Positions 26,857 to 50,501 of a DNA stretch of 64,000 nucleotides are shown one piece after another. Under the pieces are notes generated by a model, which searched no databases, was not told the origin of the DNA, and saw only the letters and a program-made list of their open reading frames with translations. The DNA lies in contig JAMSLZ010000012.1 in the NCBI GenBank assembly GCA_026027325.1, positions 124,001-188,000 of the forward strand, written 5' to 3'. Within the stretch, counting starts at the first letter, position 1. Every line of letters starts with the position of its first letter. This stretch comes from Actinomucor elegans (Eukaryota > Mucoromycota > Mucoromycetes > Mucorales > Mucoraceae). The position numbers and the translations under genes are program-made.

Positions 26857-29006
26857 GGATGAATAATCAATTACGATTGAATAACATCTATGTATAATAT
26901 AATTTAATATTCCGTTAATTAAGTTTTATATATATTATGACATTTTTTATCGCTGAAATAATATATTTTTTTCTGTAAAATATTCATATATAATATCTTT
27001 TTCTGTAAAATCATTTTCTTTTACCCATGTATTTTCATTATGGTTATAATTCTTCCATTTAACATAAAACAAATAATTTTTATTTTCTATTTTATGTTCT
27101 ACTATCTTTTCAACTTCGTATATATTTTCATCTTTATCGACATCTCTAATTTTATAAATGTTTAATTTTTTATTATTAGATTTAGATTTTTTCTTTCGTT
27201 TTCTATTAGGTGTTTGATATTCAGGAAAATCAACGTCACTATTTATACCAGTATTATTATTAATATTATTATTTTCAATTTCATTATTATCAAAATCCAT
27301 TATAATATCATTGTCATTTTCACCTATTTGTAAATTTAATAATTGTTTTTGTAATTTATCTACCTGTTTTAATTTTTCGGATTGTTCAATTTCATTAGTA
27401 TATACTATATCTATAAGTCTTAAATCATTAGGAAAATCAAAGTTATCGTTTATCCACAGTTTATGATGTTCTTGGGTTATAATATTAAATTTATCAGAAA
27501 ATGTTTGAATATTTTTTAATAAAAATACAACCTTTAATTGTAAATTGATATATTTTATATCATCAGTTTTTAAAATAGAATTATTATTTGAAAATCTTTT
27601 AAATTTATTATGTAAATCCTTGAACTGATTTTCAACCAATGAACGAAAACTACCAAAAACCCTATTATAATGTTCTTCTTGAATATTTAATTTTACACCA
27701 TTTTCCTTACGAATAGGATAAAAGAAATTTTTATCATCTAGATTAATATTTTTACTTTTACATAAAGTCTCAAATTGTTTTATAAACAATGTATATCCAC
27801 CATCTAAAGCGATAATATCTTCTTCTTTAACTTTATTATAAATTTTCATATTCAGAAACATGCCACCATCACTACTAGAACCACATAATTCACTTTTGGA
27901 TAAATATATTATCATTTCGTTTATATCACATAATACTTGTGTTCTAATACCTGCTGATTTTAACTTGTAACTCCATTTTTTTTGCAAAGATATATCAGGT
28001 TTATCATATTCAATACTAGTATCGTGTCCATCTAACATTAATGTTATATTCTTGAAATTTTTAGGGTTTTTAATAAGTGCAGATAATACTCTAATTTTAA
28101 TATTACTAAACATATTTAACAAACAATAATCTACATATTTATTTAAATTTTCATAATTTGTTATCCAGAATTCCTTATAAACTGCATAAAAACTTGTATG
28201 AGGCATATATTTTTTTATATTTTTTGATGTGAAACCAGTTACCAATTGATACAATAATAGTAAACCTTTTTCTATTTCTAAATATGGACCTGGATATTCT
28301 TTATTTGTATATAAAACGCTTAAAAAGAAAAATACAGATATATATCCTAATTTATTTTTTAATTCATCTTTTATTTCTCTTATATATTTTAAATTTTTTA
28401 ATTCAGTCCTATGTTTATATATATTTAATACTTTTTCCCAATCTTTACTTAAAAATGTCCATTTCTCTAAAATTATTTTATTAATTTCATGCTTTAATTG
28501 CTTTCTATAATTGATAATATCTTCATTATTTTTATTGACATATTCGTCCATAATTTCTATATCACTTTCCATGTTGGTATAATCTTTTATATTATATATT
28601 AAATTCAATTTTATCATTTTATAAAAATACAGCCGAGATTTGATATATCATTTCAAACTCAACCATGGATTGTATTTTTATTTCATTAAAACGATTTTAT
28701 TAAAAATATGTGTATAGAACTAATATTATTGCAAATAATAATAATACTCTTTTTCTAAATTGTATATATTTATTAATATAATTTCTATTGTATAAAAGGT
28801 AAAACGTTATTATATAAGATAAGAATCTGAGATTAAAAATAAAAAATAAATAAATCATAAAATCTTTATATTTTCTATTTTAAACAATATATTAGGTTTA
28901 TCTAAAAACTTTATATTTTAAGAACTTTTTTCATTTTGAATTTAATTTAACATATAATTTTTTATATTATAATTAATACTATATTCTATTATTAATGTTT
29001 ATTCCC
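26857..29006 (-). mobile_element. Element C: chromodomain DDE transposon inserted in Gypsy-1a gag
   Basis: Comparison with intact Gypsy-1b shows a 2150-bp insertion. The shared sequence at the two borders is CCTTG, so the TSD is 3-5 bp; a 3-bp CTT leaves ends GGATGAATAATC and GGGAATAAACAT, which are similar over about 15-20 bp. There is no long TIR. The interior is extremely AT-rich and carries one transposase ORF. Confidence 0.88.
26947..28617 (-). CDS. DDE transposase with C-terminal chromodomain (element C)
   Basis: It has 556 codons from the first ATG; Met16 (MESDIEIMDEY) is an equally likely start. A Lys/Asn-rich N-terminal region is followed by the core: LMLDGHD (Asp196), IALDGGY (Asp272) and FGSFRSLVENQF (Glu329). 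The spacing D-76-D-57-E and the 'GGY' and 'E-N-x-F' contexts resemble the DDE_Tnp_4 domain of PIF/Harbinger elements. Residues ~495-550 form a chromodomain (IYEVEKIVEHK, YVKWKNYNHNENTWV) with the expected aromatic cage positions. Its codons are extremely AT-rich, unlike the surrounding Gypsy-1. A basic patch (NRKRKKKSKSNNKK) before the chromodomain may be a nuclear signal. No frameshift is seen, so it may be functional. Confidence 0.85.
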   Translation of the reverse strand: MIKLNLIYNIKDYTNMESDIEIMDEYVNKNNEDIINYRKQLKHEINKIILEKWTFLSKDWEKVLNIYKHRTELKNLKYIREIKDELKNKLGYISVFFFLSVLYTNKEYPGPYLEIEKGLLLLYQLVTGFTSKNIKKYMPHTSFYAVYKEFWITNYENLNKYVDYCLLNMFSNIKIRVLSALIKNPKNFKNITLMLDGHDTSIEYDKPDISLQKKWSYKLKSAGIRTQVLCDINEMIIYLSKSELCGSSSDGGMFLNMKIYNKVKEEDIIALDGGYTLFIKQFETLCKSKNINLDDKNFFYPIRKENGVKLNIQEEHYNRVFGSFRSLVENQFKDLHNKFKRFSNNNSILKTDDIKYINLQLKVVFLLKNIQTFSDKFNIITQEHHKLWINDNFDFPNDLRLIDIVYTNEIEQSEKLKQVDKLQKQLLNLQIGENDNDIIMDFDNNEIENNNINNNTGINSDVDFPEYQTPNRKRKKKSKSNNKKLNIYKIRDVDKDENIYEVEKIVEHKIENKNYLFYVKWKNYNHNENTWVKENDFTEKDIIYEYFTEKNILFQR

Positions 29007-29384
29007 CTTGATGGGTGCCTTGGGATCAACAACAGCGCGAGCATACTTGACAGAGTCAGCATTGGATTTCTCAATTAAGGCTTTGGTAGCGATAACAGCC
29101 TTAAGAACACTATCCTTCTGCAAGTATTCAGCCTGGAAATCATCGAGATTATCACCAGACAAAGGAGACGAGAGACGAGCAGCAAGAATGGTTAACTCAA
29201 TAGTGAGTTGGTTGATAGTATCTTGCATACTACGGAGAGATTCTTCAGCTTGCACTTGTCGATCAACAAAAGAAGCAGCAGAACCAGAAGATTCTTCCAT
29301 GGATGCATCAAGAACAGGTAAGTTGGCTTGAGCAACAGAAACAGTAGGTTCACCAGAGTGAATGGAGGCAGCAGGAGAAGACAT
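29007..29384 (-). CDS. N-terminal Gag fragment of Gypsy-1a
   Basis: It starts MSSPAASIHSGEPTVSVAQA and is the same as the first ~130 residues of Gypsy-1b Gag apart from a few substitutions. It is cut off after PKAPIKG by element C. It lies directly downstream of the 5' LTR (29430-29933). Confidence 0.92.
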
Positions 29385-29429
29385 TGGTAATAAGATTGTA
29401 ATTGTTGGAAAAAGCTTGATTCAAAAAAA

Positions 29430-32434: not shown

Positions 32435-35119
32435 TTATTCTATCTTTCTTTTCTTGTTTGAACGTCTATTCAGTATTCTCTCTTCTCTACTCGTAGTGGC
32501 TGCAATATTTGCTCTTTTGTTTTTCGACATCTCGATCGCTACATTTGACATCTCATTCCCATTGCATTTAGGAATCTTGGAAGTTCCAACTTTTTTGCGT
32601 CTGTTAGGTTCAGAGTTTTGAATTGACTGTTCGACTCTAGTTTGCTCTAAACGTCGTAATTCTCTTTGCTTATTCCAGTACCGTTGAATGATAGTTGGAT
32701 CGGTGAAATCACTTGCTTTTTGCCAAGTATTTTCTTTCTCAGAATAACCTTTCCACTTAATCAAGTATTCTCGATGACCTTCTTCACCTCGATGATCACG
32801 GATACCTTCGACTTCGTAGTATTCTTCTTCGATACTAGACTCATCCAGGGTAACTACTTTCAATTCCGACGGTACATAGTTTCGGGATAATAATTCATTC
32901 TGTTCATCCTTTAGTTCATACGATCCACCAGTATTTCTTCGAACAACAGTGTAAGGTCCCTCATAAATCGGAGCTAACTTACTAGATCGATTCTGTAATC
33001 TGATCATGACATGCGTTCCAACTGGAATGTCGACAAGAACACTCTTTTGATTGAACTTTTTGTTATATTCCTCATTTATCTTCTGAGTTCTTTCGAGGAT
33101 GGCTGGGAATACGATCTTATCCATGTAATCTACGCGTTCTTCCAACTCTCGCATGGTCATAGACTCAATGGGTAGTTTGAACTTCTTCTCGTTCCCGTAG
33201 TCATCAGGTAAGTTGACTCTACGTGCAAACATCAAGGAGAAGGGAGAACTCATAGTTTTTGCTTTAATGTGTCGGTTCATGCAGAGCTGTATGATAGGAA
33301 GATAATACGCCCAACTATGACTGTCTGACTTCATCATTTTTCTTAACGTGTTAGTTGCGGTACGAACTGCATTTTCCGCTGCTCCATTTGCTCGAGGATG
33401 ATATGGCGTAGTGTATCTTCTATCAATTCCTAGGTTCTTCGAAATACTGTTCATCACAGCATTCTTGAACTCTAGACCATTATCAGACTGGCAAATACGT
33501 GGAACACCAAAATCACCATAGACTTTGACCAACTCTTTTGCAACAGTATCGGATTGTTTGTTCTTCAGAGGTCTGAGAATAACGAATTTCGAACAAATAT
33601 CTGTTATAACCAACATGTAAACATATCCTTCTTCAGTTACGTCAAAAGGTCCAGCCAAGTCGATAGCAATATGATCAAATGGTCGGTTGGCTACAACATT
33701 AGATAATGGGTGATAACCTCTCTTACTGATGTTGTGCTTTTGACATTCAACACACGAACTAACAATGTCTTTTGCTTCTGCGTAGATATTCGCCCAATGG
33801 AGACCTTGTGAATGTAAATCTCGCACAATTGCTTGCGATCCAAAGTGTCCAAATGCATGCGCTTCTTTCAACAGAGCATCTCTCTCTTCTTCAGGAGGAG
33901 TCATATAGTCAGTCAGCTCATCTTTTCTTTCAACTAGTTTAGTCGCGAGTACGTTAATCGTTTTATCTCGGCTAAATCGCTTTTTTCTAATGATGGCTTT
34001 CTTTTTAGGGCTTCGTCTGATGATTTTGCTCGTAACACTATCCTCCACCAGTTTGTTTTCATCTTCTAAAGGTGAATACAAACGGCTCAGAATATCAGGC
34101 AATTTGTTCAATATACCGGGGATGTGCACTACATCAAAATCAAAATCCAGAAGAGTCTCGATCCATCCAATTAACATGGGATTTGCGATCTTTTGCGTAT
34201 GTAAGTATACTAGTGCCTTGTGATCTGTAAATACAGTGAACTTTTTGCCCCATATATACTTGCGAAACTTCAGTAATGCTAACACGACTGCATACAATTC
34301 TCTTTTAGTAGTGCTCCAACGGCGTTGTGAAGGTGACAAGGAGCTCGATACAAATCCTATGTAAAGATCTTGGCCGGCCTCATTCTTTTGAAACAACACT
34401 GCCGCGACACCATAAAGTGATGCGTCTGTAGCTACGTAAAACTGTTTTGACAAATCCGGATAATGCAGCATCATCTTCGACTGCAAAATCTCTTTGATAG
34501 TTTCAAAGCTCTTAGTGTGACGATCGGTCCACAGCTCTTCCACATTCTCTGCATTCACTAAACTGGTGAGTGGTTCTGCTACTCTGGAAATCATCGGAAC
34601 GAATTCTCTCAGGTAATTGACCAAACCCATAAATTGCTGGATGTGTTTCTTATTTTTATTTGGAAGTGGCCACTTTGAAACATTGGTAAGTTTTGATTGA
34701 TCCACACGAACTCCTGAAGCGTCCACTACAAATCCCAACATACGAACTGAATGTTGAAACCATGAACACTTGGATTCTTTCAGGATTAAATTTGCGGAAT
34801 TTAATCTGTCAATCACAAACTTTACATCTTTTGCATGCTGTTCGATACTTTCACTGGCAACAATACAGTCATCCACGAAGTTCTGAACGCAATCAATACC
34901 TTCAAACAAGGTTGCCATGACCTTTTGAAATTGCGAGGTTAGCATTTTCACTCCAAAGCACGCTTTTTGAAAGGAAAAGCCATTGCCATTATAAGTAAAC
35001 GATAACTTGTGTACATCCTCGGGTGCCACTTTGAATCGATGATATGCATTCGACAAATCCAAAGTTGTAAACACTTTTTTACCGGCCAAGTTATCAAAGA
35101 TATCCTTAACCAAAGGTAC
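32435..35119 (-). CDS. Gypsy-2 Pol (RT to chromodomain), C-terminal part
   Basis: About 892 codons in one frame. Reverse transcriptase continues from PLVKDIFDNL with the active site FVDD. Then come RNase H (VATDASLYG; TDHKALVYL), integrase (HHCC finger FGHFGSQAIV...CVECQKH; D-D-E at IDLAGPF, SDNGLEF and GAAENAV) and a chromodomain (YEVEGIRDHR, YLIKWKGYSEKENTWQ) followed by a basic tail. No stop or frameshift is visible, so the only defect is the A+B insertion at its start. It differs clearly from Gypsy-1 but has the same domain order. Confidence 0.94.
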   Translation of the reverse strand, partial: VPLVKDIFDNLAGKKVFTTLDLSNAYHRFKVAPEDVHKLSFTYNGNGFSFQKACFGVKMLTSQFQKVMATLFEGIDCVQNFVDDCIVASESIEQHAKDVKFVIDRLNSANLILKESKCSWFQHSVRMLGFVVDASGVRVDQSKLTNVSKWPLPNKNKKHIQQFMGLVNYLREFVPMISRVAEPLTSLVNAENVEELWTDRHTKSFETIKEILQSKMMLHYPDLSKQFYVATDASLYGVAAVLFQKNEAGQDLYIGFVSSSLSPSQRRWSTTKRELYAVVLALLKFRKYIWGKKFTVFTDHKALVYLHTQKIANPMLIGWIETLLDFDFDVVHIPGILNKLPDILSRLYSPLEDENKLVEDSVTSKIIRRSPKKKAIIRKKRFSRDKTINVLATKLVERKDELTDYMTPPEEERDALLKEAHAFGHFGSQAIVRDLHSQGLHWANIYAEAKDIVSSCVECQKHNISKRGYHPLSNVVANRPFDHIAIDLAGPFDVTEEGYVYMLVITDICSKFVILRPLKNKQSDTVAKELVKVYGDFGVPRICQSDNGLEFKNAVMNSISKNLGIDRRYTTPYHPRANGAAENAVRTATNTLRKMMKSDSHSWAYYLPIIQLCMNRHIKAKTMSSPFSLMFARRVNLPDDYGNEKKFKLPIESMTMRELEERVDYMDKIVFPAILERTQKINEEYNKKFNQKSVLVDIPVGTHVMIRLQNRSSKLAPIYEGPYTVVRRNTGGSYELKDEQNELLSRNYVPSELKVVTLDESSIEEEYYEVEGIRDHRGEEGHREYLIKWKGYSEKENTWQKASDFTDPTIIQRYWNKQRELRRLEQTRVEQSIQNSEPNRRKKVGTSKIPKCNGNEMSNVAIEMSKNKRANIAATTSREERILNRRSNKKRKIE
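35117..35119. other. 3-bp target-site duplication of the A+B insertion
   Basis: TAC at 35117-35119 is repeated at 41758-41760. Removing everything between and one TAC restores the Gypsy-2 frame across the reverse transcriptase (NFPV then PLVKD). Confidence 0.8.
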
Positions 35120-36924
35120 GGAAAATATACATGCTATTCATATACCTATGTATCTTTAAAAAATATTCGTAAAATTTATAATCATATATATATATATAAA
35201 ACAAAAAAAAATTACAAAATCTTTTTTATTTTTTAAGTCATGTGACATCATGATACGTATCCCTTAAGTTTAAAGGTTATCTAACCCAGCATGATATTCA
35301 TCAATTATTTCTCTATCATTAAATGCGTCTTCCCATATCCAACTATTGTAGCTATCATCATAATTTTTCCATTTAATAAAATATTTTGTTCTTTTTTTAT
35401 ATTTTCTATGATTTAATATTTTTTCTATTTCATATGAATCATTTTCTATGTATTCTATATTTTCGTCAATTATCATTTCACTTTTATTTAGCATATCATT
35501 AATAAATGAGTTTTGTTTATTTCTCATATTAATGACTCTACAATATTCAAAAGTTTCAGTAAATGCATCTTCATTATGATTTTTGTTACTTGGATAATTA
35601 AATTTATCTTGTATCCATAATCCATAATAATCTTTAATTGGAATATTTTGAAGCTCAACAAATTTTTGGATGTTACTTAATAATAATGCCATTTTTAACT
35701 GTAAATTATATATTCTTATATTATCAATTTTAAGAACTTTATTACTATTATCAAATCTTTGGAATTTATCACCTAATCGTCCAAATTTATTTTCAATGAT
35801 GCTTCTAAAACTTCCAAAAGTATTATTGAATTCAATTTCATTATCACTTAACTTAATTCCTTTTTTTTTTCTAAATGGAAATATAAAATTATCGTTATTG
35901 ATTTTATCATTTCCATATTTACTACAATTCTCTAAGAAGTCTTCTATAAATAAATTATAACCTCCATCAACTGCTATACAATCATTTTCATTTAATTTAT
36001 TTTCTAGTTTCATTGCTAAAAACATTTTACCATCATTATATTTTTTACATGGTAAACTATCTGATACATAAATAGCTATTTCATTAACATCAATTATTAC
36101 TTGGGTTCTAAATCCTGATTTTTTAAATTTATATGAATACATATCTTTACTTTTAATTTTCAAATCTGTATAGTTAACTCTACTATCATGTCCATCCAAA
36201 AGTAAAGTAACATGCTTAAAATGCTCAGGATTAAGTCTATTAGCATAATATATTCTTAATAAAATTGTGCTAAACATATTTTCTAATAGTTTATTACATG
36301 TTTTATGTAGCTCATTTAAGTTTACATCCCAGAAACTTTTATATATTTCATGAAATGATGAATAGGGTATGTAATCATTCATTTCTCTTATGCTTTTACC
36401 TGTAATTAAGTGATATATTATTAGTAATCCTTTTTCAATATCTCTATATGGAGTTTTATATTTATAATTTACAAATATATTATTTAAAAAGAAAAATATA
36501 GGTATTATGCCTAATTTGTTTTGTAATTCAACCTTAATTTCTTCAATATTTTTTACATCTTTTAGTTCTGTTCTATGTTTATACTCATCTTCTTTTATTT
36601 TCCATTCCTCATCTAAAAAATTCCAGTAACTATGTTTTATTTTATTTAATTCTTCGTATATAAGTTTATCCATTTTATGTTTTTTATATATGTTTTTTTC
36701 AATTTTTATTTCATTTTAGCATTTAATGATAGAGAAATAATTGATGAATATCATGCTGGGTTAGATAACCTTTAAACTTAAGGGATACGTATCATGATGT
36801 CACATGACTTAAAAATAAAAAAGATTTTGTAATTTTTTTTTGTTTTATATATATATATATGATTATAAATTTTACGAATATTTTTTAAAGATACATAGGT
36901 ATATGAATAGCATGTATATTTTCC
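35120..36924 (-). mobile_element. Element A: chromodomain DDE transposon with ~210-bp TIRs
   Basis: A 1805-bp element with nearly perfect terminal inverted repeats at about 35120-35330 and 36714-36924, starting GGAAAATATACATGC. The left TIR extends into the 3' end of the transposase gene, so the last ~20 codons exist twice in inverted orientation. It is separated from element B by a 40-bp spacer. Confidence 0.88.
35270..36673 (-). CDS. DDE transposase with C-terminal chromodomain (element A)
   Basis: 467 residues, homologous to the transposase of element C throughout. Core residues: LLLDGHD (Asp160), IAVDGGY (Asp236) and FGSFRSIIENKF (Glu294), spacing 76 and 58. A conserved upstream block (EYKHRTELKDVKNIEEIK, PYRDIEKGLL, YIPYSSFHEIYKSFW) is shared with C and D and may bind DNA. 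Residues ~412-460 are a chromodomain (YEIEKILNHRKYK, YFIKWKNYDDSYNSWIW). Codon use is extremely AT-rich. Intact and possibly active. Family reading (PIF/Harbinger-like) rests on the DDE context and 3-bp TSD. Confidence 0.85.
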   Translation of the reverse strand: MDKLIYEELNKIKHSYWNFLDEEWKIKEDEYKHRTELKDVKNIEEIKVELQNKLGIIPIFFFLNNIFVNYKYKTPYRDIEKGLLIIYHLITGKSIREMNDYIPYSSFHEIYKSFWDVNLNELHKTCNKLLENMFSTILLRIYYANRLNPEHFKHVTLLLDGHDSRVNYTDLKIKSKDMYSYKFKKSGFRTQVIIDVNEIAIYVSDSLPCKKYNDGKMFLAMKLENKLNENDCIAVDGGYNLFIEDFLENCSKYGNDKINNDNFIFPFRKKKGIKLSDNEIEFNNTFGSFRSIIENKFGRLGDKFQRFDNSNKVLKIDNIRIYNLQLKMALLLSNIQKFVELQNIPIKDYYGLWIQDKFNYPSNKNHNEDAFTETFEYCRVINMRNKQNSFINDMLNKSEMIIDENIEYIENDSYEIEKILNHRKYKKRTKYFIKWKNYDDSYNSWIWEDAFNDREIIDEYHAGLDNL

Positions 36925-36964
36925 TTATAATAATAACAGTCAAATTTACTGTAATACTTATTAA
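36925..36964. other. 40-bp spacer between elements A and B
   Basis: An imperfect palindrome: TTA...ACAGT, a 7-base loop, ACTGT...TTAA. It belongs to neither Gypsy-2 nor the two TIRs. It could be a footprint of earlier transposition or host sequence carried with the pair. Confidence 0.5.
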
Positions 36965-37288
36965 GGAGAACATGTTTGTGCATTTAAGCATAAAAATTTA
37001 ACAATTTACATAGATTTCATGAATTATATAAATGTTAGGGTTAATTTTAAAATCACGTGATTGTTAAAATGCCCCTAAATTTATGAATTTCATTTTTTTC
37101 AGCTTTTTTTTAGAATACCAAGACATTTTTAGAAATCACATGATATGATAGCTATAAAACATACTAATTCATTTTACTATCATTATATGTTTAATGGATA
37201 GGGATGTATTATATTAAGAGTCTCGTATTTTATTATTAATTAAATAAAAGGATTCAAAAAATTATTTATATTAAAATATATATTGACT

Positions 37289-37873
37289 TTATTTAATATT
37301 TAATTTATTAAATATATTAATAGCATCATCATAATTTATATCCTCATCTTTTATCTCGTTATTTATTTTAATAAAACCTGTTTTAATTGTAAAATTTATA
37401 TATATCTTACCATTACTAATATTTATAGATGGTGAAAATAATGATGGATAAATAGAAAAACATTTATTTTTAATATCATCAATACTTAAATTTTGATTAT
37501 TTTCTATATTTTTAAATTTGGATATATTAGTTAATACCAAATACATAATTTTTGTATTTTCTTTTGAATTCGATTCTATTAAAGGATTTAATAATTCTAC
37601 ATTCATAATTTTATTTCTTCTACAATACATATTTATTTCATTTATTAAAACATTTATAAAACTTTCAAAATCAATATGTTCATTACTAGTAATGTCTAAA
37701 TCTATCTTTATTTTATATGGTTTTTTTTCAATCCATAATTGACTATCTTCAAATGCAATCTTTGTATCAATTATGAAATTATGACCATTATACAATACAT
37801 TGTATTTGTCATCCTTAAATTTCTCTATTAAAAAAGCATTTTTATCATATTCTGTTAATGTTATTACAGGCAT
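37289..37873 (-). CDS. unknown 194-residue protein of element B
   Basis: Minus-strand ORF starting MPVITLTEYDKNAFLIEKF, Asn/Ile/Lys-rich, without cysteine clusters, membrane segments or recognisable catalytic motif. The alternating strand-like pattern (KIKIDLDI, KIYINFTIKTGFI) suggests a compact beta-rich fold. It lies between the left TIR and the transposase genes in the same orientation, so it may be an accessory protein. I do not recognise a family. Confidence 0.55.
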   Translation of the reverse strand: MPVITLTEYDKNAFLIEKFKDDKYNVLYNGHNFIIDTKIAFEDSQLWIEKKPYKIKIDLDITSNEHIDFESFINVLINEINMYCRRNKIMNVELLNPLIESNSKENTKIMYLVLTNISKFKNIENNQNLSIDDIKNKCFSIYPSLFSPSINISNGKIYINFTIKTGFIKINNEIKDEDINYDDAINIFNKLNIK

Positions 37874-38269
37874 ATTTATTTTAATGTATGTTTTTCAATT
37901 TATGTTAAATAAATTAAAATTGGAAATATAAGAGTAATCGGGTGATTACCAAACGAGGTCTCAGATTTAATTTATACTAATAATACATAATATTTTATTT
38001 TACACTTCATAGGGAAATGCTTAACATTTTTTGTTTTTTAAGCTTTTAATATGACCAATAAATATATCAAAAAGTATTTAAATAATTACTATTACTAATT
38101 TCTAAAATAATTCTTTTTTTCATATTTTTATCATAAATTCTACTTTTTCCTTTATTTTCAATATTTTATTTTGTTTTTCTATTAAAACTATTTAATTTTA
38201 TATATCAAGTAATAGATAATAAAAATATTAATTAAAAATATATAATAACAATAAAATTATATTTAAAAT

Positions 38270-38441
38270 GTTTCTCATATGATGAATATAATGAAAATTT
38301 ATTAGAAATAGATATTGTGAAGGAAGAAATAAAAAACTTAGAAAATAAAAATTTAATTTAGATAATAATTATCAGCATGATATAAATGTTAAAATTAATG
38401 GAATATATATTGAAAAATTTAATTTAGAAAATATATTTAAA
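38270..38441 (+). pseudogene. decayed AT-rich coding relic in element B
   Basis: Short plus-strand frames (EIDIVKEEIKNLENKN and INVKINGIYIEKFNLENI) separated by a stop suggest a broken protein. A similar NFNIEKL pattern occurs in the relic at 45884-46201. Function unknown. Confidence 0.3.
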
Positions 38442-38738
38442 TTATAATTTAAGTTTTTTCATGATGGGTGCGATTTCATCAAGTATCATATTATTCTTAT
38501 TATCTAATGTTTTTCTTTTTATACCTTTGTTTTTATCTTTATTATATGTCTTAAATTCATATACTTTTCTTAATCTTTTATTTGAACCATTTTTTTTCAT
38601 GTAGATTTCATAACACCCATCTTTTTGCTTTATTTTGTATTCTGCTAAATCATATTTTTTCATATCTTTTATAATTATACTTCGTTTAATATTGTATTTA
38701 TATTTATCATCTACAATAATATTAAATATTTCATCCAT
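38442..38738 (-). CDS. 98-residue lysine-rich ORF of element B
   Basis: Starts MDEIFNIIVDDKYKYNIKRS and ends APIMKKLKL; strongly basic C-terminal half. Its first ~65 codons lie in the 1485-bp duplicated unit, so a second copy occurs at 40223-39903, where it runs into the N-terminal sequence of the transposase instead. Possibly a DNA-binding accessory protein; no family recognised. Confidence 0.45.
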   Translation of the reverse strand: MDEIFNIIVDDKYKYNIKRSIIIKDMKKYDLAEYKIKQKDGCYEIYMKKNGSNKRLRKVYEFKTYNKDKNKGIKRKTLDNKNNMILDEIAPIMKKLKL

Positions 38739-39009
38739 TTCTTTTTTATATTATTACTTTTTCAATTTTTTTTATTTTTTTATAATAGATATATTTAATC
38801 CCACTCATAATGTAATACCCAATTGTCTCTGATCTATTACATAATCATTGTGTCTTAAATAGGCTAGTTTACTGACTTAGTCAGGTCCTTGTAATAAGAA
38901 TAATGAATATCAAATATGCATTTCACATTTATAACTATCAATATATTTTCTATCATATTTTTAATAAATATAAAAATTCAATTTTTTGCATTTTTTATGT
39001 AAATTAAAA

Positions 39010-39897
39010 TTAATCCTTTAAAAACTTTTTCCATACGTTATACTCTCTATTTTTCTTACGCCATTGATATTCTTTTAAATACAATACTATATCTTTTTTA
39101 TTTCTATTTCGTGGTATTATACTTTGCTTTAAGCCATTCCATGTGCCTTCAATTGTATTTGTATGCACACCTGTATTTGGATCTTTAAAATGCTTTGAAT
39201 GATTTACAGTTAAATGTTTGTATCCTATATTTTTCAAGTTATTATACCCTTTCCATAAATCCGTATATATTGTTGTACCTTTTTTTACATATCTTTTTAT
39301 AATTAAATCAATATTATCAACATTTCTTTCTTCAATGGGTAATAAAAACATTTTTTTGTTTTCATTTTTTATTTTATTTTTTAGCATACTTCTTTCGATA
39401 CCACCAATTACCCAAGCACCTTCTACCTTATGCCCCTTATTATATTTTCTTTTTGCAATTTTACTTTCATCGATTTCTACAATTTTATTTCTACCTCCAA
39501 TTTTAATATTTCTGTTACCTAACAATTGTTTATTTTTCAAGTATTTTCTGAATATTTTATTGTATGATGACACTGTATTTTTGCTAATTTGCAAACTTGA
39601 TGCTATAAAGGAAGAAGGTGCTTTTCCAAGAAAAAGATATAATATGTGTAATTGAGTATTTAAAGGTAAAGTTAAATTATTAAAAATTGTTCCTTTCAAT
39701 GGTGATATTGCTTTCCTACATTTATAATATCTACAAACATATAATTTTTTATTTAAGTTTAATTTAGTTTCATGTTCACATTTATTACACTTTATATGTT
39801 TATTAACGTAATCATTACTAATTAAATATAATAGTGCTTCTTTTTCATCGTCGAATATTTTTTTTAAAGATTTATATGGTTCTATAAACATCTGCAA
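39010..39897 (-). CDS. IS1595/Merlin-like (ISXO2) transposase, copy 1
   Basis: 295 residues. The N-terminal zinc ribbon (CNKC, then CRYYKC) is followed by a helix-turn-helix-like segment (ASSLQISKNTVSSYNKI). The ISXO2-like DDE core has VEIDESKIAKRK (Asp143), IYTDLWKGY (Asp213) and VHTNTIEGTW (Glu250). This is the layout of bacterial IS1595 and eukaryotic Merlin transposases. In this copy an A run near 39930 has one base fewer than in copy 2, so the upstream N-terminal extension is out of frame and translation would start at MQMFIEPYKS. Confidence 0.88.
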   Translation of the reverse strand: MQMFIEPYKSLKKIFDDEKEALLYLISNDYVNKHIKCNKCEHETKLNLNKKLYVCRYYKCRKAISPLKGTIFNNLTLPLNTQLHILYLFLGKAPSSFIASSLQISKNTVSSYNKIFRKYLKNKQLLGNRNIKIGGRNKIVEIDESKIAKRKYNKGHKVEGAWVIGGIERSMLKNKIKNENKKMFLLPIEERNVDNIDLIIKRYVKKGTTIYTDLWKGYNNLKNIGYKHLTVNHSKHFKDPNTGVHTNTIEGTWNGLKQSIIPRNRNKKDIVLYLKEYQWRKKNREYNVWKKFLKD

Positions 39898-39902
39898 TTT
39901 TA

Positions 39903-40223
39903 TTAAATCCTTTTTATTTTTAATTTTAATTTGTAAAAAAATTCAATTTTTTCATATAACAATAAAATTTGTGGTAGTAGGAGTTTCAATATGGACCTGA
40001 GAGTTCCTTTGGGATACATCCCTTTATTATATGTCTTAAATTCATATACTTTTCTTAATCTTTTATTTGAACCATTTTTTTTCATGTAGATTTCATAACA
40101 CCCATCTTTTTGCTTTATTTTGTATTCTGCTAAATCATATTTTTTCATATCTTTTATAATTATACTTCGTTTAATATTGTATTTATATTTATCATCTACA
40201 ATAATATTAAATATTTCATCCAT
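39903..40223 (-). pseudogene. fusion ORF at the duplication junction
   Basis: 106 codons: the beginning of the 98-codon protein (MDEIFNII...) joined at the tandem junction to the leader of transposase copy 1 (GMYPKGTLRSILKLLL), then frameshifted to a stop. It is a by-product of the duplication rather than a real gene. Confidence 0.6.
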
Positions 40224-40493
40224 TTCTTTTTTATATTATTACTTTTTCAATTTTTTTATTTTTTTATAATAGATATATTTAATCCCACTCATAATGTAAT
40301 ACCCAATTGTCTCTGATCTATTACATAATCATTGTGTCTTAAATAGGCTAGTTTACTGACTTAGTCAGGTCCTTGTAATAAGAATAATGAATATCAAATA
40401 TGCATTTCACATTTATAACTATCAATATATTTTCTATCATATTTTTAATAAATATAAAAATTCAATTTTTTGCATTTTTTATGTAAATTAAAA

Positions 40494-41504
40494 TTAATCC
40501 TTTAAAAACTTTTTCCATACGTTATACTCTCTATTTTTCTTACGCCATTGATATTCTTTTAAATACAATACTATATCTTTTTTATTTCTATTTCGTGGTA
40601 TTATACTTTGCTTTAAGCCATTCCATGTGCCTTCAATTGTATTTGTATGCACACCTGTATTTGGATCTTTAAAATGCTTTGAATGATTTACAGTTAAATG
40701 TTTGTATCCTATATTTTTCAAGTTATTATACCCTTTCCATAAATCCGTATATATTGTTGTACCTTTTTTTACATATCTTTTTATAATTAAATCAATATTA
40801 TCAACATTTCTTTCTTCAATGGGTAATAAAAACATTTTTTTGTTTTCATTTTTTATTTTATTTTTTAGCATACTTCTTTCGATACCACCAATTACCCAAG
40901 CACCTTCTACCTTATGCCCCTTATTATATTTTCTTTTTGCAATTTTACTTTCATCGATTTCTACAATTTTATTTCTACCTCCAATTTTAATATTTCTGTT
41001 ACCTAACAATTGTTTATTTTTCAAGTATTTTCTGAATATTTTATTGTATGATGACACTGTATTTTTGCTAATTTGCAAACTTGATGCTATAAAGGAAGAA
41101 GGTGCTTTTCCAAGAAAAAGATATAATATGTGTAATTGAGTATTTAAAGGTAAAGTTAAATTATTAAAAATTGTTCCTTTCAATGGTGATATTGCTTTCC
41201 TACATTTATAATATCTACAAACATATAATTTTTTATTTAAGTTTAATTTAGTTTCATGTTCACATTTATTACACTTTATATGTTTATTAACGTAATCATT
41301 ACTAATTAAATATAATAGTGCTTCTTTTTCATCGTCGAATATTTTTTTTAAAGATTTATATGGTTCTATAAACATCTGCAATTTTATTAAATCCTTTTTA
41401 TTTTTAATTTTAATTTGTAAAAAAAATTCAATTTTTTCATATAACAATAAAATTTGTGGTAGTAGGAGTTTCAATATGGACCTGAGAGTTCCTTTGGGAT
41501 ACAT
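40494..41504 (-). CDS. IS1595/Merlin-like (ISXO2) transposase, copy 2
   Basis: The 295-residue core looks the same as copy 1, including Asp, Asp and Glu of the catalytic triad. Here the frame extends upstream to MYPKGTLRSILKLLLPQILL, giving 336 residues. The hydrophobic extension may be natural or an accident of the duplication border at 41506, since the ATG lies only 2 bp inside the unit. Confidence 0.87.
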   Translation of the reverse strand: MYPKGTLRSILKLLLPQILLLYEKIEFFLQIKIKNKKDLIKLQMFIEPYKSLKKIFDDEKEALLYLISNDYVNKHIKCNKCEHETKLNLNKKLYVCRYYKCRKAISPLKGTIFNNLTLPLNTQLHILYLFLGKAPSSFIASSLQISKNTVSSYNKIFRKYLKNKQLLGNRNIKIGGRNKIVEIDESKIAKRKYNKGHKVEGAWVIGGIERSMLKNKIKNENKKMFLLPIEERNVDNIDLIIKRYVKKGTTIYTDLWKGYNNLKNIGYKHLTVNHSKHFKDPNTGVHTNTIEGTWNGLKQSIIPRNRNKKDIVLYLKEYQWRKKNREYNVWKKFLKD

Positions 41505-41757
41505 CCGAGTAATCTAGTTTTTATACATATATTAATTGGATGACATTGTTGTTATATAGTATGTTTTATAGCTATCATATCATGTGATTTCTAAAAATGT
41601 CTTGGTATTCTAAAAAAAGCTGAAAAAAATGAAATTCATAAATTTAGGGGCATTTTAACAATCACGTGATTTTAAAATTAACCCTAACATTTATATAATT
41701 CATGAAATCTATGTAAATTGTTAAATTTTTATGCTTAAATGCACAAACATGTTCTCC

Positions 41758-44001
41758 TACGGGAAAATTGAATGTTGGAGGTAGAATTTGATTCAACGAT
41801 CTCACATCTAAACACGCTCTATGGCTCACAATCTCACCATCTTTGTTACGTTTAGGAACAAGCAGTAATGGACTGTTGAATGACGTGTTTACTCGGGATC
41901 GAATGATTGTACCTGTTTCCAACCATTCTTTTATTTGCTTATCGAGAACTGGTCTTAATGCATAAGGGATGGGGTATTGACGTCTATACGCCGTTGCACC
42001 CTCTTTCGTAGGTAATCGAACAATGGATTCAGGCAAAGGACATGAAGATGTTATGGGTATGCTCTGATTAATCTCTAGTGATTCTTTAATTATACTCATG
42101 AACTCTGCTCTTTGCTCAGGCGTACCAGCAGGCGAATTGTCAGGTTCATGTTTTCTTTCACGTTCAATGTTCAAGTTTTCAAAAATAGCTTCATCACTCA
42201 AGGCAGCGTCAGAATGTGCATGATCATCTTTGATGCGAAAAGCCACTCCAGTTAATCCGATATTCATTTTGGGAAGAATATCTGTGCCAAGAAGAATATC
42301 AAACTCGAATCCGTCGTTAAAGTTCATTACTTCAAATGAGTGTTTGAACTTAATGCCATTTGCATACTTTATTTCCAAAGGATCGGTGATACCAATTCTC
42401 TTTGCAGTATTTTGATGAGACAAGAAATTATAAGAACCAGGTAATTTATGTACTTTATTTATATGAAGTTTATTCTTCAAAGAAGACAAACTAACAAAGC
42501 TACAACTACTTCCTGTATCTACGCGTCCCAGGAGACGTTCAGACTCTACAATCAACGGTGTACATAAATTAAATGCGTCATTAGCCTTTAATTTGTCACT
42601 CTTCTTGTTCTCATTCAGGTACTTACATTGATAGCTCTGATTCTCAATCTCGGAGTCGGCCATCTCCAAGTCCTCTTGAACTTGCTGCTCAATTGACTTC
42701 TCACTCGAGGAAGCCGCAGGCATCACAGCCAAGACAGTACTGCTACTACTGCTTTCAGCAGCACCACAACGATGACCAGGACGCCATGGAGACACACCAC
42801 AAGTCCAACACTCTTTACCCTTCGCCTTCTTCACAGAAGGAGGGCGTTCAGCTCTTCTCTTAGCGAGAAAACAATCCTTGGTGTCATGGGTCGCATTGTT
42901 ACCATGATGGATGCACGAAAAGGGTTTCGCCACCTTACTCGCCTTTTGCACCCGACGAGCTGCATTCTTGTGATGATGGTGATAGGGGGCCTTTTCTTTG
43001 CGTCGCTCAACAACAGGCGCACCAGGAAGAAGAGAAACAGCCTCATTATACGACGTATGGTCGTCACCAAGAATATCACGACCAATCTGTGCGATTTGAT
43101 CGACAGTGTATTCAGCATTCTCACCAGAAGATCCAGCCTTCACTGAATTCATTGCAACTCTGATCAGCGTCTGAACAGGTTTAGTCAGCGAGGCCAAAAA
43201 ACGATCAGCTACTCTAGGACACTCTCTAGGTAGGCCTGCATCAAACATTGCTGTTTGAAAACGCTTAGCATAGTCGCCCACCGACTCATTGTTTTCCATT
43301 ACCATGGTAAACACAAGGTCAGTATATCTTCTCAACACAAGGGAAGAACCGTGCTGCTTCTTAAACTCTCTACGAGCATCTGCCCATAGGGTACAACCTC
43401 TACTCAGCTCATCTTTCACCCATGCTTTATCGCCATGGGGAAGGCAAAGGGGTAAGAAGTTCTTCCACACCTCATCAATGGACATGGAAGAAGACTCAAC
43501 TACATCCTCAAATTCTCTCAAAAAATGCTCAACAGACTCGAAGGCTTCGTAACCTGGAAAAGGTTTGACAGCCGAGGTCAAGAGTTGGAACTTGGGCAAG
43601 TCGCGACGATTCAATGTCAAACCAGTAGGTGGCTTAACACGATCAACCTCACCGATCAATGAACTGCACTCTTGGATCTCACGGAGCATCCTCTTGGAGC
43701 GTTCAAGGGCCAACAAGGCTTCATCAGCCGCTACGTCATCTCTGACTACACGAGCACGACTAAACGCTTGAAGGTATCGGGTAATATCTGCACGGAGCCC
43801 GGCGATATTTGTGTCAATCAGTTGTGGGTCAGTCATGTCAGCAACAGCATGCTCAGCCGACTCAGACAACAAAGAACTAGCACCAGGAGACTTGATAAAC
43901 TCATCAAGGTTGCTTGACAAGGTCGATTCATCAAACATGGGGGTGTCAGGGTTAACACCACAGTTGGCAGAAGAAGAACCAGAAACGTTGTTGGAAGCCA
44001 T
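41758..44001 (-). CDS. Gypsy-2 Gag-protease-RT, N-terminal part
   Basis: About 750 codons of the real polyprotein. It starts MASNNVSGSSSANCGVNPD and carries a retrotransposon Gag domain, a basic His-rich linker, a zinc knuckle (CWTCGVSPWRPGHRC), an aspartic protease (GRVDTGSSCSFVSL) and the first reverse transcriptase blocks (LLVPKRNKDGE, ACLDVRSLNQILPPTFNFPV). The open frame runs about 30 codons further into element B before stopping, giving an apparent 779-residue protein; those last residues are not gypsy sequence. The remainder of Pol is at 32435-35119. Confidence 0.93.
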
Positions 44002-44046
44002 ATCGATAAAAGTAAGGAAAATAGGACAGTAATTAAAAGTAAAAAA

Positions 44047-44552: not shown

Positions 44553-45515
44553 TGCTTAATCAAAAACTGGCTCCTAACCCGACCAACAAAGCATACCGCA
44601 AAAACCAGCTGCGTTTTCTGGAATGGGCCATTAAAAATCAGGTATCGTATACGTCCTTCTCCGGTTCAGATATAGTAAACTTCCTAGCGACCATCCAGCA
44701 AACGCATAATCTTCAAGTGCCCACGCTCAAGACGATTCGTGCAGCAGTTGCTCATCTCCATGATCACCCTTCCAGCATCAGTGAGGATCCATTGATAAAT
44801 TCCTACCTGGACAGTCTGTCTAGATAAGCTCCTCCGGTATCAATTCATCGGGAACAAGTGGATATTGACTCCTTCATTAGAAGAATATGCTCGTTCTATT
44901 CCCTCTAGACCGGTCACTCCTATTAAGCTGTTACAGCAAAAATTGGCTTTTCTCTTGGCTATGGCTGCATTTTTAAGACCTTCTGACTTGGCCCGAATTC
45001 CCTTCTCTTCTTGCGAAATAGGTGAAGCCGATGGATGTTTCAAATTTCAAGTGATCTCTCCCAAAGAAACTCGCAAGAAACGACGCATAATAAAACCTTT
45101 TACTATTCACCCACATGCAAGCGATCCAGAACTGTGTCCTGTCCAATGTTTCAAAGCATTAAGAGATCATCCCGACCTGCATGCTCGTCCGGCAAATTCT
45201 CAACTATTCATAAAGTCCAACAATATTCAACAACCGTTATCTGCAAGTACTTTGTCTTCTTGGCTCCATCGAGAGTTTATTTCCTTGTCCATTAAGGAAT
45301 CTCGAGTTTCTATCCGTTCTTTGGCATCCTCTAGAGCTTTAGATCAAGGTGTCTCTATAGACCACATCACGACTCTTGGTAACTGGGCTTCAGCAAGTAC
45401 TTTTCAGGAACACTATCAACGCAATCAAATGGCTATGATAGATTTTACTTCCACGGTTCTTTCTGGTTCTAATGATGATGAATTATTCGACATGCCCAAG
45501 ATAACTTTACTCTAG
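44553..45515 (+). pseudogene. DIRS-like tyrosine recombinase, broken
   Basis: Frame 1 (LNQKLAPNPTNKAYRKNQLR... to 44826) is a core-binding, SAM-like N-terminal domain. It ends at TAA. The catalytic domain follows in another frame (about 44865-45515): FLRPSDLARIP, PVQCFKAL, then RVSIRSLASSRAL (Arg), TLGNWASASTF (Trp) and the EHYQRNQ region with the Tyr nucleophile. This pattern is that of DIRS/Ngaro-type YR retrotransposons; a Crypton is the alternative. Gypsy-2 cut off the start. A homologous fragment lies at 54467-55056. Confidence 0.8.
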
Positions 45516-45527
45516 ATTAGCATAATA

Positions 45528-45625
45528 ACATTTCCTATTTTGTTCTGACGGTCTCAAACAATTCTTAAGAGAATTTTCTCGACCTGGAATTGATATTTAG
45601 ACCTGAAGAACAAAATAGGAAATGT
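45528..45625. repeat. near-palindromic DIRS-like repeat
   Basis: AACATTTCCTATTTTGTTCT at the left and its complement at the right enclose ~60 bp with an inner palindrome (TTCTTAAGAGAA). Located just after the YR stop codon; related copies are at 19786-19905 and about 45825-45880. This fits DIRS inverted or internal complementary repeats. Confidence 0.6.
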
Positions 45626-45824
45626 TAATTATCCTCACCCTTCAATTATTTTATTATATTATTATTATATATTTTCATGTCACTTCCCCTCCCTTCTTTT
45701 ACTTTTACAATATGACCGAACTCAAATTCGATTGAGGTTATAAAAGTTTTCGTTAATCAACCTCTTATATATCTTTGAATTCGCTATTAAATAAAGGTTC
45801 AAGAAGATTCTAGCATAATAACAT

Positions 45825-45883
45825 TTCCTATTTTGTTCTTCAGGTCTAAATATCAATTTTCACCATTTTATCTTTTTCAATAT
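45825..45883. repeat. second DIRS-like terminal repeat copy
   Basis: Repeats TAACATTTCCTATTTTGTTC and the AGGTCTAAATATCAATTTT block of 45590-45625 in inverted order. It borders AT-rich foreign sequence at about 45884. Confidence 0.55.
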
Positions 45884-46898: not shown

Positions 46899-47328
46899 CT
46901 GTATGCGAAAAAAGGGTTTCAATGTTTTATAAATTAATCTTTTTCTCTTCATATACAGTGACCAGCAAAACTGTTACAATGTTTTCAGTTTTTGAACATA
47001 ATCGCTTATATCTCCACAAGATCGCATTCATACTAAATGAGAAATAGCTTATTCTGAAGCCCAAGTTATCGGCTTTATTAGGAATGTTTCGGATTTGTGA
47101 CTGCGTTAGTATTTTCGGAGAAACAGATTGAGAAATGAGAGGACAACATTGTAACAGTTTTGCTGCTATCATGAAAAATTAAAAAAATGGAATACCACAA
47201 CTTGGCTATTCCTTTTAGAGCCCACAGATTCAAGCCGAATACTTTTAAAATCGTTAAAAACACTGTACTATAACTTTGGGTTTTTTTACTCAGTAAATTT
47301 GTGATTTTATAACAACTTAACTCTACCT

Positions 47329-48160
47329 ATGCGCGCAATCTCTGTCTCTCAACGTAATCGCATTGTTTCTCTTTTGAAATCAGGCGAAACTATTCGGGAA
47401 GTATCCCAAAAGGTCGGCCTTAGTACCGCTACTGTGTGCCGAATCGGAAAGCAAGCTTGTTCGGACCGTAAAATGAACAAAGGCGGCAGACCACAAGCCC
47501 TGTCACATGCCGATGAAAGGTATTGCTCGCGCCAAATCACCACAGGGAAGTTGGATAACGCTGTGAAGGTCAAGAAAGCATTAAAAAAGGACCTTGGTAT
47601 CCTTGTGAGCCCCGATACGATTAGAAGAGCCCTTCGTAGAGCAGGCTTGGGTGCTATTGAGAAGCCTAAGAAGCCATTGCTTAGCAAGAAGAACATCCGC
47701 AAGAGGCTTGAGTGGTGCAAAGCCCACCGTGACTGGACCGTTGATGACTGGAAACGGGTTATTTGGTCTGATGAGACCAAAATCAATCGATTTAACTCGG
47801 ATGGCCGTGTCTGGGCTTGGATTAGGGACGGGGAGCAGCTTCAACCTAAACATGTCAAAGTTACAGTCAAACACGGTGGTGGTAGTATCATGATCTGGAG
47901 TGCCTTAACTTATGCTGGAACGGGTTGGATGTGCAAAATTGATGGTAATATGGACAAAACACTGTACAAAGAGATCTTACAAGACGAGCAAGATCGGACA
48001 ATCAACTTTGCGGCAGAAGAATTGAATCTTAGGCGCGACCAGATGGTATTCCAGCATGACGATGATCCTAAGCATACGTCGAATTTGGTACAAGAATACC
48101 TCAAAAACCAAGAATATCAAGTATTAGAGTGGCCCCCACAATCACCAGACCTCAACCCAA
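47329..48160 (+). pseudogene. Tc1/mariner transposase of Tc1-A, N-terminal part
   Basis: Starts MRAISVSQRNRIVSLLKSGE with a paired helix-turn-helix DNA-binding region (ETIREVSQKVGLSTATVCRI), then the catalytic VIWSDETKIN (first Asp ~148), VKHGGGSIMIW, FQHDDDPKHTS (second Asp ~244) and WPPQSPDLNP. Element D interrupts it right before IENMW, which carries the catalytic Glu. The open frame continues ~25 codons into element D. Apart from the insertion no defect is visible. Confidence 0.93.
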
Positions 48161-48391
48161 GACGGATATCTACAATTAATATATCTTTTAAATCTATTGT
48201 ATATGTCCTATTTTTTTTAATATATCCATATATTTTATAATTTATAACTTTTTTTCATGAATTAAAATTATTATTAAGTATAATAAACATTATCAAGAAG
48301 GCAACTGTTCCATTTTGCATGAAAAAGCAATATTATATTTATGCTTTCTCCTAATATACGTACCAAATTTATATGAAACAAGATGTCCGTC
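48161..48391. repeat. left direct repeat of element D (MITE-like)
   Basis: Runs GACGGATATCTACAATTA to ACAAGATGTCCGTC; looks nearly identical to 50267-50498. Confidence 0.9.
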
Positions 48392-48412
48392 TTCTATAAC
48401 ATTTTAAATTAG

Positions 48413-49884
48413 TTACTTACTATTCCAATATATATTAATACAATCAAAACTATTAAATTTACTGTAATGTATCCATGAATTATCCTCATCACTGTAGTTT
48501 TGCCATTTCACAAGGTAATAACTATCTTCGACTATTAACCCTTTATGATCCAAAATAGTTTCAATTTCATAACTTTCATTATTATCTATATCTATTTCCA
48601 AGTCCATTTTCTCATTATTATAAATATTATTATTTTTAAAATGAGCAATATTTGATAATTCTAATCCTAAAAATTGTTGCTGTAATAATTTCATTTTATC
48701 TAAATTGTTTATTCTTTCATTTAACTTTGGAAGTGATTTATAATTTTCATTATTATTCAAAATATCATTTTTGTATTTAAAATCAAAGCTATCATTAATC
48801 CAATATGAATGAAAATCACTATGTTCTATATTGTTTAGTTTAATATATTTTTTTAAATTAAAAAGGACACATGCAATTTTTAGTTGAATATTATATATAT
48901 TTATATTAGTAGTTAAAAAAGGTTTTTTGTTATTTAATCTTTTAAAGATACATCCCAAATCTGAGAAAGTTTTTTCCATTTTAGACCGAAAACTTCCAAA
49001 TTGATCGTTATAATTTATTTCAATTTCATTTAAGTTTATATTTTTATCTTTTCTGATAGGATATACGAAGTTATAGTCATTTAGATCAGAACTATTTATT
49101 ATATTATCTACGTATAGGCTATATCCTCCATCTAATGCAATACAATCCATCAAATTTAGTTTATTTTCAATATTCATATTTATAAGCATAGATCCATCAT
49201 TATTAGTACTACATGGTTGACTGTCTGATACAAATAATACCATACCATTTGTATCTATTGCAACTTGTGTTCTAAACCCATTTTTTTTAAGTTTGTAACT
49301 ATAATATATGGATTTATCTTCTGCACCATATACCATACCTCTTTTATCATGGCCGTCTAAATGTATTGTTACTTGATTAAACAAATCTGGATTCTCTATC
49401 ATTCCATTTAAAAGTCTAATTTTATATTTGAAAACATGTTTTGTAAAGAAAAACTTAAAATCTTATTTAATTTTAACATTCTATCTGATGAATAAAATTG
49501 TCTGTATATTTGATGAAAAGTACTTTTTGATATATAATCATCCATATCTTCAATTGATATATTCTCTACTATAAAATATAATATCAATAAGCCTTTTTCT
49601 ATATTATTATATGGTCCTCTATAATCTCTATCTCCAAATAATATAACTAGGAAGAAATAAACAGGTATTATTCCTAACTTTTCTAATAAAATCTTTTTAA
49701 TTTCTTTGATCTTTTTAATAGATATAATCTTTTTAGTGTGATATTTTTTTTGTTCAATCTCTGGCCAACCATAATTTAAAAATTTCCAATAATCATTTGT
49801 TAGAATCTGATACTCCATTAATAAAGTATCCTTAACATTATTAATATTATCCATTTGTTCTTTTTTATATTGAGATAAATTCAA
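48413..49884 (-). pseudogene. DDE transposase with chromodomain (element D), frameshifted
   Basis: Two minus-strand frames: 49884-49408 (MNLSQYKKEQMDNINNVKD...) and 49402-48413 (MIENPDLFNQVTIHLDGHD...). Together they match the A and C transposases along their whole length. The break is near 49424, where an A run is one base shorter than the frame needs. The core residues are in the second part: IHLDGHD, IALDGGY and FGSFRSKMEKTF. The chromodomain is at the end (YEIETILDHKG, YLVKWQNYSDEDNSWI). Codons are very AT-rich. One recent indel makes this copy inactive unless slippage occurs. Confidence 0.85.
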
Positions 49885-50266
49885 TTTTTTATAACTTAAA
49901 ATAAAATTAATAATAATATATATACATTATTATGTTTTAGAAAACATTTTTTATTTTGAAAAGTTTGAAGTAATTCTAAAATTTATTAATTTTATATTTT
50001 GCTTAGTCAGCAAAATTGTAAAATCAATTATTTTTTTTGAACTTTTTATTAATAGACAGATTTATAAATATTTTGTGTTACACAAAATATAATAAATCCT
50101 AATTGTTTTAAAGAAATAGAAAATATAAAAAGTTCACAAATTGTGAACATTTTTAATTTTCATGGAATGACAAACAAATTGATAATTTGAAAAGAATTGT
50201 AGTGTTAAGCTGATTTTATAATTCAGAATTTTATAGCAACAGAAACATTTCTCTATGGTTATAGTA

Positions 50267-50498
50267 GACGGATATCTACAATTAATATATCTTTTAAATC
50301 TATTGTATATGTCCTATTTTTTTTTAATATATCCATATATTTTATAATTTATAACTTTTTTTCATGAATTAAAATTATTATTAAGTATAATAAACATTAT
50401 CAAGAAGGCAACTGTTCCATTTTGCATGAAAAAGCAATATTATATTTATGCTTTCTCCTAATATACGTACCAAATTTATATGAAACAAGATGTCCGTC
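50267..50498. repeat. right direct repeat of element D (MITE-like)
   Basis: Same orientation as the left copy, differing mainly by one or two T in a run. Confidence 0.9.
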
Positions 50499-50501
50499 CA
50501 A

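Follow-up and report, generated by a model that had tools for sequence, protein, structure and literature searches.

We analysed a stretch of 64,000 nucleotides from Actinomucor elegans (assembly GCA_026027325.1, contig JAMSLZ010000012.1, positions 124,001-188,000 of the forward strand; hereafter the window), in which the proteins of three DNA transposons (A, C and D) join a transposase to a chromodomain. The elements probably represent a diverse cut-and-paste lineage of Mucoromycota and Mortierellomycota that combines a DDE_Tnp_4 catalytic core, a histone-tethering chromodomain, 3-bp insertion and mobile end units. An earlier note, made from the window sequence, had described a chromodomain joined to a PIF/Harbinger-like transposase, and Pfam searches bore out both domains: DDE_Tnp_4 and Chromo exceeded the gathering score in the proteins of A (1.2e-9 and 1.3e-10, respectively), C (4.5e-11 and 3.6e-10) and D (1.4e-10 and 1.6e-7). 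The group is also, as described there, a family of many copies. When the genome (36.5 Mb, 27 contigs) was searched for related elements, the A protein gave at least 94 matches, the D protein at least 125 and DDE_Tnp_4 (PF13359) at least 131, the counts for these large families being lower bounds.

Nine families were read (A, C, D, F2, F3, F4, F6, F7 and F8, with two copies of F3 and one each of F7 and F8), and further families exist in the genome. All nine passed the PF13359 cut-off of 24.8 bits (26-45 bits), and the D, D, E triad was located in each. The residues between the catalytic positions follow D-75-D-57-E in A and D-75-D-56-E in C; the spacings of 76/58 and 76/57 given earlier are right as position differences, and the N-terminal block then called conserved is indeed shared. 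The Chromo profile matched in eight of the nine families, which are diverged and carry the domain in frame at many sites; F3 stops without one, just ahead of its terminal repeat. Two refuting conditions named in the earlier note, a core of another DDE family and a failed chromodomain profile, were not borne out. Of 93 chromodomains, which span deep divergence, nearly all retain the aromatic cage. Structure prediction for the A protein supports a Tn5-like core fold and a chromodomain fold with its cage: the model matches Tn5-like transposases and H3K9me3-reading chromodomains, and superposes on H3K9me3-bound ones. The structural matches listed included no PIF/Harbinger structure, which was not counted as evidence against.

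A 3-bp target duplication was found at 18 of 21 distinct complete copies, against a chance expectation of about 0.3-0.4 (21 × 1/64, somewhat higher for AT-rich DNA). Element C (26858..29007, minus strand, 2150 bp) lies in a chromovirus gag gene between perfect copies of TTG (26855-26857 and 29008-29010), and its empty site was found with 60 of 60 bases at 56683 and in L028, L033 and L049. Element D (48161..50498, minus strand, 2338 bp) lies inside a Tc1 transposase open reading frame (ORF) between perfect copies of CAA (48158-48160 and 50499-50501), with an empty site (60/60) in L031. The boundaries first assigned to C and D were right to within one base. Element A (35120..41757, minus strand) sits in a chromovirus pol gene and is flanked by TAC (35117-35119 and 41758-41760); its joined flanks are intact over 60 of 60 bases at 37 other places, and at two more with 88% identity. 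Protein identity of 100% was seen in nine full-length A matches and 17 D-core matches in the genome, and identical copies in several families indicate recent movement. Chance or artefact is ruled out by the curated cut-offs that both domains pass, the target duplications bounding the elements and the empty sites.

A homologue search of 5.8 billion proteins returned 167 relatives, of which 120 were listed; those named came from Mucor, Circinella, Entomortierella, Gamsiella, Mortierella, Linnemannia and Dissophora. Mortierella is placed in Mortierellomycota and Rhizomucor in Mucoromycota, the two phyla to which the other genera belong. A chromodomain was present in 85 of the 120 listed homologues (profile built from eight families), and the domain is also in frame in proteins annotated in Mucor, Entomortierella and Circinella. 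A tree was built from 118 cores, those of the nine families and of 109 listed homologues no shorter than 400 amino acids (aa). Chromodomains occur to either side of its midpoint, a distribution that requires 7 changes, compared with 25 in shuffles. An old gain with several losses is the simplest reading of these sequences; some of the apparent losses are truncated frames (e.g. P0120). Among prokaryotic contigs no relative was confirmed, none of 36 pattern matches encoding one.

We found no description of a PIF/Harbinger-type transposase with a fused chromodomain in the open literature searched (subscription papers, Repbase and Dfam lay outside the search), and none of a chromodomain transposase combined with mini-element ends in the open papers searched. 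In its accessible portion, PMC10799480 places the chromodomains of fungal transposons in Maverick and chromoviruses, and that of PMC7928374 records PIF/Harbinger in Mucorales and contains no 'chromo-' word. HarbingerS (SET-domain) and TET-bearing PHISTA elements likewise pair a Harbinger-clan transposon with a chromatin- or methylation-related protein; unlike here, these proteins are enzymes encoded by accessory genes, with no histone reader fused to the transposase (PMC12730594, accessible portion).

In the mechanism that we propose, the N-terminal helical part of the protein would bind the element ends. It precedes a Tn5-like DDE core of DDE_Tnp_4 type (PIF/Harbinger, PHIS), then a linker that varies and, at the C terminus, a chromodomain whose methyl-lysine cage is intact. 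Cutting would take place at short inverted ends, which by eye all start with 5'-GR, and a staggered 3-bp cut at insertion would duplicate almost any AT-leaning 3-bp sequence.

Several observations weigh against the joint reading. Three of the 21 complete copies, L039 (D), L020 (F2) and L046 (F6), have no target duplication. Some clades, F3 among them, persist although they lack a chromodomain, and the proximity of elements of this type (chromo-type places) to the located chromoviruses does not significantly exceed that of Tc1 or Merlin places (Fisher p 0.28, 0.41 and 0.82 at 10, 25 and 50 kb). No long terminal repeat and no direct repeats were found in element C, and the solo end units described below could derive from recombination between direct repeats. 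Finally, the A protein aligns poorly with that of a canonical-type Harbinger element in the same genome (L066), with a BLASTP E-value of 0.01 over 42 residues and, in hhalign against canonical-type Harbinger, an E-value of 0.012 and a probability of 3.5 over 124 columns with two template sequences.

The chromodomain and chromatin targeting

The most likely role of the chromodomain, one proposed also for chromoviral integrases, is to tether the transposase to H3K9-methylated chromatin, which would place new copies in silent repeat islands. Like the elements studied here, the chromoviruses of the window carry a C-terminal chromodomain on a DDE enzyme and occupy the same genomic islands; they differ in being retrotransposons with an rve integrase, an unrelated catalytic domain and unrelated replication. 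The suggestion in the earlier note that the chromodomain acts as a targeting module is plausible in that nearly all members retain the aromatic cage, and it drew no support from the distribution of the elements. A located chromovirus lay no more than 25 kb away from 39% of chromo-type places, 32% of Tc1 places, 36% of Merlin places and 8% of random points. The test covered 121 chromo-type places drawn from the matches to the A and D proteins, some of them fragments, with F3 included despite its missing chromodomain and pieces of one copy merged by hand; the comparators were Tc1 (114 of 132 rows), Merlin (117 of 134) and gypsy (51 of 53), the random control covered 11 of the 27 contigs, and the located chromoviruses are relatives of one window family. 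Clustering by chromoviruses that is specific to the chromodomain was not found: the strong excess over random is common to elements without a chromodomain, so that clustering does not need one. Because old insertions have been filtered by selection, the distribution does not show integration preference, and it neither supports nor excludes the targeting model.

It is quite possible, if doubtful, that the chromodomain has its part in regulation, dimerisation or the assembly of multimers and not in targeting, and that the clustering comes from selection against insertions elsewhere. In favour of this account, Tc1 and Merlin occupy these islands to an equal extent although they have no chromodomain, and clades without the domain persist; it fits poorly with a methyl-lysine cage kept in nearly all of the 93 chromodomains and with a predicted structure that superposes on H3K9me3-bound chromodomains. 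If the chromodomain does steer insertion, the elements would be a DNA-transposon counterpart of chromovirus integration, with one conserved cage to mutate and with sister families lacking the domain as natural controls.

Terminal direct repeats and solo units

The most unusual feature, overlooked in the earlier note, is the presence of composite ends made of direct repeats in a second transposon lineage. Terminal direct repeats were found in six families, namely D (231/232 bp), F3 (~288 bp), F4 (221 bp), F6 (~403 bp), F7 (~220 bp) and F8 (~293 bp). The two repeats of a copy are 97-100% identical, and every direct repeat in all six families has inverted ends of its own. In the window copy of D, the left repeat (48161..48391) has short inverted ends (GACGGA..) and the right one (50267..50498) is 232 bp long. 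F2 carries a 283-bp quasi-palindromic unit at both ends, and A has inverted arms instead. Among the F2 copies (L016-L028), the 283-bp unit is direct or inverted depending on the copy, as if flipping.

At least 40 D units were found in the genome, all 100% identical (40 of 111 candidates scored); 24 of the 40 form 12 pairs spaced 2.0-2.25 kb apart. At three of six unpaired places that were fetched, a solo D unit was bounded by a target duplication, and the remaining three abut internal sequence; solo units with target duplications were also found for F6 (two) and F2 (one). In the six families, the 220-403-bp repeat at each end would be a minimal element with two inverted ends, so that one transposase could move either the whole composite or a single end unit. 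We infer transposition of the units in preference to recombination between the repeats. One solo D unit (L068:198-429) lies in a diverged Tc1 copy (73% identical), at the codon where the complete D element of the window (48160) is also found, which may reflect a preferred target or chance.

The direct repeats might instead be accidental composites, in which two small non-autonomous elements came to flank a transposase by chance with no maintained architecture. We regard this as rather unlikely. Repeats that are ~97-100% identical within a copy mean that each composite could be young, and the plan is not universal, C being without repeats and A and F2 being arranged otherwise. On the other hand, it is found again and again, in six families whose transposases have diverged and whose unit sequences differ, and is kept by many D copies at separate sites, as the 12 pairs illustrate. 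Such a plan can also be stable, as is seen in KolobokP, described by those who reported it as 'unlike any other DNA transposons' (PMC9587614, accessible portion). According to the same portion of that source, KolobokP, like the elements described here, has long terminal direct repeats on either side of a transposase and a small accessory gene, has short terminal inverted repeats on each repeat and leaves solo repeats with target duplications; unlike here, it has a Kolobok transposase, occurs in animals, encodes a His-Me nuclease and has repeats of ~450 or ~660 bp (PMC9587614). The present elements, from an unrelated transposase lineage, have instead a DDE_Tnp_4 core, a chromodomain and 220-403-bp repeats, and are fungal, and the Pfam matches listed for their second ORFs included no His-Me nuclease. 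The elements therefore work like KolobokP at their ends, yet the transposase type and the lack of a listed His-Me match set them outside KolobokP.

We tentatively suggest, as one speculative extension, a new composite-like lineage of early-diverging fungi independent of KolobokP, in which a histone-reading transposase is joined by an exchangeable accessory gene that nicks or copies the end units and so rebuilds the composite; in one branch the accessory protein would be replication-initiator-like and conserved in both Mucoromycota and Mortierellomycota. That mini-elements make up the terminal direct repeats of a second superfamily suggests that composite-like DNA transposons have arisen repeatedly in eukaryotes, not once, and the intact and identical copies in one genome make maintenance of the composite testable.

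Superfamily placement and origin of the chromodomain

The elements resemble PIF/Harbinger and the wider PHIS group in their DDE_Tnp_4 domain, 3-bp duplication, G-starting inverted end, size of 2-4 kb and frequent possession of two ORFs (PMC4482050, accessible portion). They differ from PIF/Harbinger proper in their target duplications, the fused chromodomain, the direct-repeat ends and the lack of a detected Myb/SANT partner. The accessible portion of PMC4482050 gives the target classes as TWA (TTA/TAA) for PIF/Harbinger proper, ANT for Pangu, CWG for NuwaI and TNA for NuwaII; PMC12477816, in its accessible portion, gives TNA and ANT for Harbinger. The 18 duplications found here are 74% A+T and include two TWA, four ANT, one CWG and two TNA, so few matches that no PHIS class given in PMC4482050 applies.

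Canonical-type Harbinger elements occur in the same genome (L066:1399-2712 and L067:1416-4226), without a chromodomain in the Pfam matches of L066 or in the ORFs of either. L066 scores 107 bits to DDE_Tnp_4, and L067 has a convergent partner ORF of 369 aa with no Pfam match. Members of PHIS are expected to align across the whole catalytic region at E <1e-4 (PMC4482050, accessible portion); given the weak alignment to canonical-type Harbinger, the label 'PIF/Harbinger' holds at clan level only. The weak pairwise likeness and the target duplications, which fall outside every PHIS group, would both be explained if the core belonged to another DDE superfamily that is like DDE_Tnp_4 in its catalytic motifs alone. 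This is unlikely in view of the PF13359 scores, which lie above the cut-off in every family although below that of L066, and of the motifs DG[HT], D[GS][GA]Y and R..IEN.FG, which hhalign places in register with canonical-type Harbinger.

The profile built from the transposon chromodomains scored one window chromovirus at 59.9 bits, the other at 43.4 and HP1 at 49.3. Conversely, seven of the eight family chromodomains scored higher to chromovirus gy1 than to HP1, A showing the reverse, and three of the eight scored higher to chromovirus gy2 than to HP1; at ~50 residues, the domain is too short for its origin to be settled from such scores. That these are ordinary PIF/Harbinger elements, with a chromodomain recently and artefactually fused through nesting in chromoviruses, is highly improbable and we consider it refuted: A and C do lie inside chromoviruses that have chromodomains, one of them scored above HP1 by the profile and the other below, but the domain is in frame in eight diverged families and in annotated Mucor, Entomortierella and Circinella proteins, is old on the tree, and lies in elements bounded as wholes by target duplications. 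An ancient capture from a chromovirus is possible.

Element A, accessory genes and other features of the window

Comparison with three other copies (L031-L033), the flank shared with other copies, the target duplication and the empty site define the complete element A as 35120-37939 joined to 41507-41757, 3063 bp without a nested insertion. The end at 36924 proposed earlier is not its end, since the inner 'terminal inverted repeat' continues into the same sequence in 14 of 15 A loci, the fifteenth (L015) being a fragment that shows the outer end only; the element reaches 41757. Its interpretation as a 1.8-kb transposon with long terminal inverted repeats is ruled out by that shared sequence and by the outer TAC duplication. 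Two segments placed back to back make up A, and inverted arms of ~200 bp flank each of them (35117..35326 with partner 36719-36927, and 36964..37166 with partner 41557-41758). The extra segment lies 5' of the transposase in ten of 14 copies and 3' in four (L009, L012, L013 and L014). In those four, the two gene segments are inverted with respect to the short spacer that separates them, which indicates two isoforms of A.

The nested insertion (37940..41506) is Merlin/IS1595-like and not part of A; it contains tandem 1485-bp repeats and two transposase ORFs. It is flanked by its own 8-bp target duplication, GAGTAATC (37932-37939 and 41507-41514), and is present in the A copy L032 and absent from L031 and L033. 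We accordingly rejected the possibility that A and the IS1595-like ORFs form a single element with two transposases. Merlin-like sequences gave 134 match rows in the genome.

The A transposase (35270..36673, minus strand, 467 aa; catalytic D160, D236 and E294) carries its chromodomain at residues 414-461 (35291..35434, minus strand; cage residues Y, W and Y). The C transposase (26947..28617, minus strand, 556 aa) has a Pfam chromodomain at residues 500-547 (26977..27120, minus strand). The earlier description of one protein per element fails for A, which has an additional ORF of 194 aa without known domain (37289..37873, minus strand). For D, the window copy is broken, with an N-terminal part (49408..49884, minus strand) in a different frame from the 329-aa C-terminal part (48413..49402, minus strand) that holds the catalytic core and a Pfam chromodomain (residues 278-326 of that part; 48425..48571, minus strand); an intact 480-aa transposase is present in L039-L042.

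As a general statement, the absence of a separate partner protein was likewise not supported: second ORFs occur in A (194 aa), the long form of F2 (556 aa) and F3/F4 (~123 aa), and in C, D, F6, F7 and F8 no second ORF longer than 61 aa was present in the gaps scanned. These second genes, which differ between families, probably encode accessory DNA-binding or nicking proteins. The 194-aa ORF of A gave 17 genomic match rows (whole or in pieces), each adjoining an A copy, and no convincing Pfam match. In Pfam, no convincing Myb/SANT match was found for the second ORFs of A, F2 or F3/F4; among homologues of the F2 ORF, one of 48 gave a SANT match at 0.11 (25 of 30 families listed). The test is insensitive, as the partner ORF of the canonical-type L067 is also without a match. 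PHROGs gave no match for the A ORF or a 458-aa piece of the F2 ORF, and neither Pfam nor the PDB gave a convincing one for the ~123-aa ORF of F3/F4. The F2 accessory protein (L053:2201-3871, 556 aa) is conserved in Mucoromycota and Mortierellomycota transposons and belongs to no Pfam family. Its predicted structure, a confident model, has a weak match to the pT181-type rolling-circle initiators RepD/RepDE (4cwe and 4cij), with no PF02486 (Rep_trans) match among the sequence matches listed. A likeness by eye of the F3/F4 ORF to a Rep endonuclease, and of the F2 ORF to Rep_trans motifs, was not treated as evidence.

Sixteen places in the genome match the F4 ~123-aa ORF at 70% identity, and one more at 67%, each with one internal stop (e.g. 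G000:C3:188207-188500); these are perhaps another transposon family or an intron. Elsewhere in the window, two ORFs on opposite strands (44865-45515 and 54448-55089) resemble by eye the end of a tyrosine recombinase (Crypton- or DIRS-like), and direct and inverted copies of a 40-base repeat (45518-45858) adjoin a recombinase-like ORF.

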